A stretch of DNA of 64,000 nt from positions 1,069,501 through 1,133,500 of the forward strand of contig NZ_CP080649.1 of NCBI RefSeq assembly GCF_019603315.1. Direction: 5' to 3'. Position 1 is the first letter of the stretch; each line of letters opens with the position of its first letter. Position numbers and translations under genes: made by a program. This document shows, in pieces, positions 9,780 through 12,565 of this stretch. This DNA comes from Ruficoccus sp. ZRK36 (GTDB lineage: Bacteria > Verrucomicrobiota > Verrucomicrobiia > Opitutales > Cerasicoccaceae). The notes under the pieces are model-generated. The model saw only the letters and a list, made by a program, of their open reading frames with translations, had not been told where the DNA came from and made no database searches.

Positions 9780-10775
9780 ATGGAATTTATCCGGCGTTGC
9801 GGAGGGGCTGTGACCTTCGAGCGTTTCATGCGTGAGGCGCTTTATCACCCGGATAGCGGCTACTACTCTCAGCACATTACGAATGTCGGGCGTGAGGGCG
9901 ATTTTTCCACAACCACGACGTTAAACTCCATCCTTGGGGACGCCGTGGCGGCCTGGCTGGTTGATCAACGGCACCGGCTCTTTGGGGATACGCCCTGCGC
10001 AGTGATTGAGCTTGGCCCCGGTAATGGCGCTCTACTGCGGCAGGTTCACCAGGCACTGGAGAAGGAAAAGCGTATCGAGGGCTTTAGTTTCTGTGCGGTG
10101 GAGACCTCTCCGGTGTTCCGGGCTGGACTGCGTCGCAGTTTCCAGGGGGCAGTTGAGGTCTGCGACACACTGGCTCAGGCGCTGGAGCTCTGCGATGGGC
10201 GTGCGCTCATCTACTCGAATGAGTTTGTGGATGCCTTTCCGGCTGTGCAGCTGGCGTGGCGCAAGGACGACTGGAGGGAAATTTACGTCGGGGTAGACGA
10301 TGGGGAGCCCCATGAGTGGAGCAAGCCGCTGCTGCGCGGGATCGACGCCGACGCTCCTACCCGTGTGCGCGAGGACCTGCGCATCTTTGTGCATCCGTCC
10401 TACCATGCCTGGCTGCGGCGCAGCCTGTCCCGGCTCAAGCTCGGGGCGGTACTGACGATCGACTATGGCAAAGCCTATCCCTCGACCGAGTGCCGCGCCT
10501 ACCGGCGTCACGAGCGTCTGGAGGGGATGGATATATTCGCGCATATGGGCGAGCAGGATGTGACCTGCGATGTCAACTTTACGGACCTGCGGCGTTGGGG
10601 CGAGCAACTGGGCCTTCGCACGCGCGGCATGGGCTCGCAAGCGGAGTTTTTGGAGAAGTGGGTGCCCGATTTGGCTGAGCGCGTGCAGGCCAGCCCGGCT
10701 GCGGCTTTTGTCGCGGACCCCTTCGGGGCTGGCGGGGCTTTTTACGTACTTGAGCAGGTACGCCCCCATGTTTGA
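9780..10775 (+). CDS. MidA/NDUFAF7-type SAM-dependent methyltransferase (COG1565)
   Basis: 331 residues from the ATG at 9780; in-frame GTG (9756) and TTG (9720) starts are possible, but the family N-terminus begins near VTFERFMREALYHPDSGYYS. SAM motif I is VIELGPGNGALLRQV (about residues 75-89), with the acidic residue of motif II in CAVETSPVFR and the family motif YSNEFVDAFPAVQ. Homologues dimethylate an arginine of respiratory complex I subunit NDUFS2 in mitochondria; bacterial targets are mostly unknown. It overlaps the longest frame of the next methyltransferase by 4 bp, but the real start of that gene is 65 bp downstream. Confidence 0.85.
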   Translation: MEFIRRCGGAVTFERFMREALYHPDSGYYSQHITNVGREGDFSTTTTLNSILGDAVAAWLVDQRHRLFGDTPCAVIELGPGNGALLRQVHQALEKEKRIEGFSFCAVETSPVFRAGLRRSFQGAVEVCDTLAQALELCDGRALIYSNEFVDAFPAVQLAWRKDDWREIYVGVDDGEPHEWSKPLLRGIDADAPTRVREDLRIFVHPSYHAWLRRSLSRLKLGAVLTIDYGKAYPSTECRAYRRHERLEGMDIFAHMGEQDVTCDVNFTDLRRWGEQLGLRTRGMGSQAEFLEKWVPDLAERVQASPAAAFVADPFGAGGAFYVLEQVRPHV

Positions 10776-10840
10776 GGCGGCAGGCTTGCATCGGCGGTAA
10801 ATGCGAGGCAGAATCCTACGGACTTGAACGCCGTTTAACC

Positions 10841-11419
10841 ATGTGGGACGAAGCTTACGACACCGACGAATACGTGTTCGGCACTGCGCCGAACGACTTC
10901 CTGGCTCAGCAATACAAGCAATTGCCGAAGGGGGACATCCTCTTCCTGGCCGGGCAGGGCTATCACGTGACGGCGGTGGATAACTCCACGGTCGGCCTGA
11001 AAAAAGCCGCTGCCCTCGCCAAGTCAAAAGGCGTCGAAGTAAACTACATCCACGCCGACCTCGCCGAGTATGACCTCGGCCGTACATGCTGGGACGGCAT
11101 CGTGGTGATCTTTTGTCACCTGCCGCCGGAGCTGCGGGCAAAGGTTTACCGGGGCATCGTGAATGCCCTCAAGCCCGGTGGCCTGCTCCTGCTGGAGTGC
11201 TACGGGCCGGGGCAGATGGCCTTTGGTACCGGGGGGCCGCGTGAGGAGTCGCTGCTCCTCAGCGCGGACATCGTTCGCCGCGAGCTGGTGGGGCTGGACT
11301 TTGAGCTTTTGGAGGAGAAACACCGTCCGGTCGTTGAGGGCAAGCGCCACAGTGGCCAGGCCTCCGTCGTCCAGGTCCTCGCCCGTCGGGCTACACCCGC
11401 TGGCAATGACGGGGCCTAG
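10841..11419 (+). CDS. TehB-like class I methyltransferase lacking SAM motif I
   Basis: 192 residues from ATG 10841 (MWDEAYDTDEYVFGTAPNDF, the usual N-terminus of this family). Relatives continue ...G-x-x-L-x-LGEGEGRNAVxLA-x-x-G-x-x-VTAVD. Here the sequence reads LPKGDILFLAGQGYHVTAVD, so about 11 residues containing the glycine-rich SAM-binding loop are absent in frame. Everything after it is intact: motif II (VDNS), DGIVVIFCHLPP, LKPGGLLLLECY and GTGGPREE. The protein is therefore probably unable to bind SAM normally although the frame is open. The last codons (RATPAGNDGA) lie in a copy of a dispersed palindromic repeat, another sign of decay. A wrong assembly is the alternative. Confidence 0.7.
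   Translation: MWDEAYDTDEYVFGTAPNDFLAQQYKQLPKGDILFLAGQGYHVTAVDNSTVGLKKAAALAKSKGVEVNYIHADLAEYDLGRTCWDGIVVIFCHLPPELRAKVYRGIVNALKPGGLLLLECYGPGQMAFGTGGPREESLLLSADIVRRELVGLDFELLEEKHRPVVEGKRHSGQASVVQVLARRATPAGNDGA
11394..11415 (+). repeat. Dispersed repeat fragment at the 3' end of the TehB-like gene
   Basis: CACCCGCTGGCAATGA followed by CGGGGC matches 51832-51853 downstream of dnaJ with one difference. It lies inside the last codons of the methyltransferase frame, so the repeat supplies the terminal amino acids and places the stop within GCCTAGGC. Confidence 0.65.
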
Positions 11420-11671
11420 GCTGGGTCCTGCTCTGGGGAAGAATCAGTTTGACGCTCCGGCGAGGCGGGTGTTCTTTTTTTTGCATCGATATGAATCACG
11501 CACGCACGCGCACCCTCGTTATTGTAGGAAGCTGGATTCGCCTTTGGGCGGATGGAGCTCTCCGGTGACGCCGTGTGCGCATCTGCCGGAGCGGCCTGAC
11601 GGATCAGGGCTTTCGCAGATGAACGTGAGACACCAGACCGCCGGGTCGCTTTTTCTAAAGCGAAGTCAGCC

Positions 11672-12565
11672 ATGAAACGACCCGAATCCCAAACATCTCC
11701 CATCGACGGACACCGTCGGGGTGTGCTCTTGATGGTCCTGTCCATCTTCCTCTTTGCGGCCAGCAGCCTTATCTTTAAGGCTGCCGGTGATATGCCGGGT
11801 GTGACGGGGTGGGTCATTTCTCTGGCGCGTGGCGCAGTTGGGCTGGGGATCGTGGTCGTGTTTTTCTGGCCGCGCGGGCAGTTTCAGCCCACCCACCTCT
11901 TTACGAATAAACTGCTCGTGCTTCGCGGCATTCTCGGTGGCGGAAACCTGACCCTCCTCTACATGACAATGCTCGAACTGGGGGCTGGGCGCGCGATCGT
12001 GCTCAACTGCATGTACCCGATTTTCGGGAGTATCCTGGCCGCGATTTTCCTGAAGGAGAAGCTGCGGGTGGTGCAGTTCTTCTGGATGGGGCTGGCGTTT
12101 TTCGGGCTCACTCTGATCACGGGCATCTGGGAGCAGGGGCTGGACATCAACGGCTACTATGCTCTCGGTGTGCTGGGGGCGTTCGTCGCTGGCTGTGTGA
12201 TCGTGGTCATCCGGCACCTCTCGCGCACGGAGCACACCGCCACGATTTTCTCTGCCCAGTGCTTTTACGCCGTGCTGGTCGCTATCGGGCCGGTCGCTGC
12301 GCACCCGCAGATCCCACCGCCCGCTGCGTTGGCCGTGCTGGTGCTGGGGGGAATCCTGGTCAGTGGAGGTCAGCTCTCCATGACGCGCGCGTACCTGTAT
12401 CTGCCGGTGGCGCAGGGATCGAGCATGCAGCTCTCTCTGCCGGTCGTAACGGCGCTCGGAGCGGTTGTTTTCCTCGGGGAGCAGTTCAGCCTGATCGAGG
12501 CGTTCGGTGCTGCCCTGATCATCGTCGGCTGCCTCCAGATGGTTCGCCTTAAACACCGGGGATGA
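11672..12565 (+). CDS. EamA/DMT family inner-membrane transporter
   Basis: 297 residues with about ten hydrophobic helices arranged as two EamA repeats (roughly 17-145 and 160-290). The first helix is GVLLMVLSIFLFAASSLIFK, and each repeat ends with the typical short-helix pattern (LGAGRAIVLNCMYPIF; VAQGSSMQLSLPVVTALGAV). The family exports or imports amino acids, nucleotides and other metabolites; the substrate is not predictable. ATG 11672 overlaps the stop of an 18-codon open frame starting at 11619, which may be chance. It is followed by queG after a short gap, but the two functions are not clearly linked. The upstream 252-bp gap has no recognisable riboswitch. Confidence 0.9.
   Translation: MKRPESQTSPIDGHRRGVLLMVLSIFLFAASSLIFKAAGDMPGVTGWVISLARGAVGLGIVVVFFWPRGQFQPTHLFTNKLLVLRGILGGGNLTLLYMTMLELGAGRAIVLNCMYPIFGSILAAIFLKEKLRVVQFFWMGLAFFGLTLITGIWEQGLDINGYYALGVLGAFVAGCVIVVIRHLSRTEHTATIFSAQCFYAVLVAIGPVAAHPQIPPPAALAVLVLGGILVSGGQLSMTRAYLYLPVAQGSSMQLSLPVVTALGAVVFLGEQFSLIEAFGAALIIVGCLQMVRLKHRG

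Follow-up and report, generated by a model that had tools for sequence, protein, structure and literature searches.

In a window of 64,000 nucleotides from Ruficoccus sp. ZRK36 (contig NZ_CP080649.1), we analyzed a small methyltransferase gene that lies between a MidA-type methyltransferase gene (Pfam PF02636) and an EamA/DMT transporter gene (Table 1). Its ATG sits 65 bp past the MidA-type gene on the same strand, and the frame, described as intact in a preliminary description of this DNA, is open throughout. The encoded protein has 192 residues and begins MWDEAYDTDEYVFG. A mechanical ORF list begins the same frame earlier, at TTG 10772; the start used by the family is the ATG at 10841. Between 9600 and 11720, promoter-like sites were absent and a single terminator-like site was seen, numbers below those in shuffles, and no Rfam model reached its gathering score on the window.

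Table 1. Features of the methyltransferase locus (window coordinates)
Feature	Position	Strand	Remarks
MidA-type methyltransferase gene, upstream (start uncertain)	9780..10775	+	Pfam PF02636; conserved flank in congeners
Slr1183-type class I SAM-dependent methyltransferase gene without motif I	10841..11419	+	192 codons plus TAG
Deletion junction, codons L34-F-L-A-G38	10940..10954	+	11 family residues (CLAEGEGRNAV-like) missing
D47 codon (motif II acid, retained)	10979..10981	+	D47 invariant across 11 aligned rows
Copy of dispersed REP-like hairpin repeat	11387..11416	+	Encodes the last 10 codons; usual stop of the family not found before it
EamA/DMT transporter gene, downstream	11672..12565	+	Pfam PF00892; conserved flank in congeners

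Genomic setting

The MidA-type and EamA genes are neighbors in all three congeners (G001, G002, and G003), and the methyltransferase gene is missing between them. If the spacer is taken to start where the MidA match ends, G002 has 278 bp, G003 has about 350 bp (a figure that runs to the start codon chosen), and G001 has 1.75 kb of other sequence there. The spacer, 10776 to 11490 in the window, looks prone to insertion: it holds the methyltransferase gene here and other DNA in G001 (L161), and is short in G002 (L162) and G003 (L163). Methyltransferase homologues of G001 and G002 are found in other gene neighborhoods and belong to another clade, and G003 has no homologue at E up to 1e-5. That the window gene is an orthologue of the congeners' gene was unsupported, with the copies of G001, G002, G008, and G009 forming a clade of their own (100/99) that excludes it; the window gene has no settled place in this tree, whose bootstrap had not converged. 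Even the nearest rows are separated from it by a path of at least 1.25, and no close relative was found. The family is patchy, occurring in 12 of 54 relatives and in 19 of 384 genomes of the class (E up to 1e-20), with the own genome counted in both, and relatives are present in 43 plasmid records. Since the gene is missing at the congeners' sites, has homologues elsewhere, and belongs to a patchy family, these sequence comparisons indicate that it is an accessory insertion, probably acquired horizontally.

A separate observation concerns the EamA/DMT gene, which is preceded by a conserved leader (11491 to 11690) with an upstream ORF (uORF) at 11491 to 11568; its peptide is MNHARTRTLVIVGSWIRLWADGALR. 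The leader uORFs (loci L157-L160, L164-L174, and L217-L238) encode peptides of 22 to 31 aa that are basic toward the N terminus and have a Trp about halfway along or later. Hairpins are predicted after the uORF, and one of them includes the start codon, with a matching two-sided change in G002. Such a uORF is found in 24 of 37 upstream regions, versus 2 of 37 reverse complements and 55 of 740 shuffles, by criteria that were fixed after the data had been seen and that allowed non-ATG starts, in regions that are partly related. Rfam returned nothing at gathering score for the leader and, by E-value, one chance-level match (E 0.64); the titles of papers matching leader peptides with DMT or EamA held nothing relevant. 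This is a candidate ribosome-stalling or attenuation leader peptide, perhaps Trp sensing, and it may be of more interest than the methyltransferase deletion.

The methyltransferase and its missing motif I

The preliminary description had called the protein TehB-like, a label that holds for the superfamily and is corrected here for the family. The nearest solved structure is that of Slr1183 from Synechocystis (PDB 2kw5, 3mer, and 2n47), which matches the family profile at E 1.2e-82 and aligns with window residues 1 to 183 at E 1.1e-47. The relation runs end to end from an MWDxRY-like start, here MWDEAY, and the motif II acid and the conserved remainder are kept: outside the gap described below, the window protein retains 48 of 51 family-conserved positions. 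TehB tellurite methyltransferases (PDB 2xva, 2i6g, 4dq0, and 3m70) have fold and superfamily in common with the window family, but their structures match the family profile only at E 1.6e-10 to 7.2e-10. Against three NCBIfam TehB models with equivalog cut-offs of 218 to 303 bits, three intact relatives score only 34.9 to 49.0 bits, and the window protein scores 11.0 to 20.6 bits. One intact relative, L068, passes the broader Pfam TehB model (36.3 bits against a cut-off of 20.4). Because of the far weaker TehB profile matches and the NCBIfam scores below cut-off, "TehB-like" fits at the superfamily level only; judged by sequence, the family is that of Slr1183-type small class I methyltransferases and not TehB proper. 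In the accessible part of the literature, Slr1183 as a methyltransferase receives only a passing naming in cyanobacterial transcriptome work.

Slr1183 has an 11-residue motif I segment that the window protein lacks. Here GDIL joins FLAGQG directly, without 11 residues of the SAM-binding glycine loop region. In an alignment with 10 relatives of the same order, this is the sole gap common against all 10, falling between L34 and F35 at the CLAEGEGRNAV segment; other gaps are small, 1 to 2 residues, and some relatives have them too. Since F-L-A aligns to either side of the deletion, its placement is uncertain by three codons. We then compared the protein with a set of 91 homologues, 11 from genomes and 80 from genome contigs, the latter being the best 80 of 217 confirmed relatives. 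L012 matches only in part and does not cover the loop; it was dropped, leaving 90. The glycine loop (GxGRN) is kept in all 90 of these near-full-length homologues (best 80 of 217 included) and is absent from the window protein; L122 and L139 miss a narrow motif pattern yet carry ASGQGRN and AAGEGRN. A search of the class added 13 homologues, all of which keep the full-length segment. Two of these 13, L177 and L186, have EGECRN as motif I, with cysteine replacing the last glycine. The gap is thus found in none of 103 near-full-length homologues (the 90, with the best 80 of 217, plus the 13), sets that may share species. Since the GxGRN loop is absent, we file the protein as a member of the family by descent, derived and probably inactivated, and not as an active enzyme.

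The rest of the protein remains recognizable. The motif II acid D47 and also D73 are kept, and Pfam Methyltransf_25 and Methyltransf_11 both pass their cut-offs on the window protein, but only from profile position 14 onward; in the intact relative L068, the Methyltransf_25 match begins at position 1. The preliminary description had reported a loss of about 11 residues at the glycine-rich loop, with motif II and the remainder present, and had proposed alignment with relatives as a check. These comparisons bear it out, the rest of the family sequence aligning over the whole length. An intact motif elsewhere was not seen in the own genome: a search at E up to 10 returned this gene alone and no second copy in the assembly.

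We also modeled the protein with AlphaFold2. The window model, built with 39 homologues, has a mean pLDDT of 88.5, with residues 36 to 39 below 50, and links strands 31-34 and 41-47 without helix A. The model of intact L068 (mean pLDDT, 95.6) has a helix at that place, residues 42 to 49, with pLDDT of 97 to 98. Slr1183 (3mer) ranks first among structures matching the window model (Z 22.2, 162 aligned, rmsd 1.4), and the L068 model matches it at Z 26.6 (169 aligned, rmsd 1.2). The fold of the window model is partly borrowed, because the alignment contained intact homologues; the model would therefore tell where the prediction is unsure and not whether the window protein folds.

The 3′ end of the gene also departs from the family. 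In most of the 10 relatives, the protein ends near the ARK position; the window frame, as the preliminary description had recognized, reads on into a dispersed repeat, stopping at TAG 11417-11419, and so has about 9 C-terminal residues more than Slr1183. The REP-like hairpin repeat reads CGGGTTGCACCCGCTGGCA... and occurs at 54 places in the genome at up to 2 mismatches, versus 2 for a backwards control. Among the best 30 of the 54 copies (fewest mismatches, the window's own included; L065, L067, and L189-L216), 15 begin 0 to 2 nt past the stop of a same-strand open frame of at least 80 codons, compared with 0.84% of 12,000 random positions. The stops at those 15 copies are TAG in 9 (GTAG in 4 and CTAG in 5), TAA in 4, and TGA in 2. 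Known REPs carry a GTAG tag, according to one paper (PMC3733652), and in some copies only, this tag may double as a stop codon. The methyltransferase gene is outside those 15, so its own stop has possibly been lost, a hint of decay and not proof of it. No Y1_Tnp match that would mark a RAYT transposase for the repeat was found in the genome.

Origin and age of the deletion

The most likely mechanism is an in-frame 33-bp deletion by replication slippage. The two short direct repeats involved would be the Leu-Ala codons in strand 1 (CLA) and those in helix A (FLA), which lie 33 bp apart, and the slip would have taken out the glycine-rich loop, most of helix A, and one of the two repeat copies. 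The window gene has a single TTCCTGGCCG at 10943-10952 and exactly 33 bp less, as slippage between direct repeats should leave it; we infer that this TTCCTGGCCG is the remaining repeat copy. In the 90 homologues, we measured the longest exact word common to the stretch around the first Leu-Ala pair and a stretch at a fixed distance downstream. At a spacing of 33 bp, words of at least 5 nt are found in 32 of 90 homologues and words of at least 6 nt in 17 of 90, versus 0 to 7 and 0 to 4 of 90, respectively, at 17 other in-frame spacings from 21 to 72 bp; 58 of 90 have less than 5 nt in common at 33 bp (the best 80 of 217 are included in all these counts). Elsewhere in these genes, words of at least 6 nt at this spacing occur at 1.4% of positions. 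Slippage is a putative agent here, since the repeat is deduced from relatives with 37 to 57% protein identity to the window protein and not from the ancestral DNA of this allele. No direct repeats were found at the junction, as is expected after slippage, yet this does not prove it.

Deletions by slippage at short repeats, as in nascent bacterial pseudogenes, are clean losses between the repeats with one copy retained. Unlike slippage deletions in general, this one would use a repeat that comes from the protein's own Leu-Ala codons flanking the SAM loop. Since these codons themselves form the repeat, many family members would be preset for the same in-frame loss. Papers matching short direct repeats, replication slippage, and pseudogenes included, by title, none on bacteria.

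The lesion is probably recent, because the remainder is conserved and codon usage is native. The codon usage score is 0.23, within the range of -0.08 to 0.40 across the 44 long frames of the window (a few of which are antisense and probably spurious). GC at third positions is 0.79, versus 0.69 to 0.83 in six neighbors. At conserved positions, 16 of 92 rows (the partial L012 among them, and the best 80 of 217 included) deviate more than the window protein. This evidence is not decisive, being compatible also with continued constraint or with an artefact. No accelerated evolution is claimed: the end branch of the window gene is 0.77 against a median of 0.25, but the intact L139 (0.79) and L122 (0.76) match it.

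Fate of the gene

The glycine loop and helix A are standard SAM contacts in class I methyltransferases, and the SAM-loop segment is needed for methyltransferase function. With the loop gone, the window protein is predicted to be unable to bind SAM or to methylate, and it would lack function. The frame has neither a frameshift nor a premature stop; what has been lost, as computed by alignment with relatives, is a part needed for function. The preliminary description had left the choice between a dying gene and a non-catalytic role. We favor a dying gene because none of the 103 homologues compared shares the gap, the site is slippage prone, and the gene is accessory. It is thus likely that the in-frame deletion is genuine, probably recent, and inactivating, and that this accessory gene for an Slr1183-type methyltransferase is on its way to becoming a pseudogene. 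Against this, the open frame and the conserved remaining sites would also suit a retained function, and the model as a whole is confident and Slr1183-like, though its fold is lent by intact homologues.

The gap could instead be an artefact of assembly or sequencing, with the Leu-Ala repeat collapsed or skipped by PCR slippage, and the living gene intact. The short-repeat register would promote slippage during library preparation just as it would in the cell, and a conserved remainder is what an intact gene would have. However, the assembly has no second copy with which the gene might be confused, and with 3.76 Mb in 2 contigs and 98.6% completeness, it is not a poor one. We consider an artefact unlikely, though a serious alternative to a dying gene.

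Could the protein have survived as a pseudo-methyltransferase with a non-catalytic role, such as that of a scaffold or binding partner? The open frame, the conserved positions, and the neighbor-like codon usage agree with this, as does the location just behind a MidA-type methyltransferase gene on the same strand. But the gap is unique among the homologues compared, the association with the MidA-type neighbor is missing in three congeners, the genome has no intact Slr1183-type paralogue to partner, and the model, with helix A lost, joins two strands through a segment of low confidence. Nothing points to such a role specifically, and we regard it as improbable. A more particular proposal, which is very doubtful, is that excision of the SAM loop gave this lineage its own pseudo-methyltransferase, a stable protein that binds and perhaps works on or together with the MidA-type methyltransferase encoded next to it. 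The accessible literature on pseudoenzymes, SAM-binding, and motif I gave no match, and among the matches listed for inactive bacterial methyltransferases, none was on topic by title. Finally, it is highly improbable that the shortened loop still binds SAM weakly and leaves the enzyme partly active, as the two retained acids and the predicted fold near that of Slr1183 might allow, since the glycine loop and helix A are gone and that fold is partly borrowed.

A dying gene of this kind would be an ordinary inactivation, of little wider importance by itself. It serves as a warning for annotation, in that an open frame passing Pfam cut-offs, two of them here, may be a dead enzyme. For the family, it would be a clean case in which two similar Leu-Ala codon pairs 33 bp apart let slippage delete a whole cofactor loop in frame.
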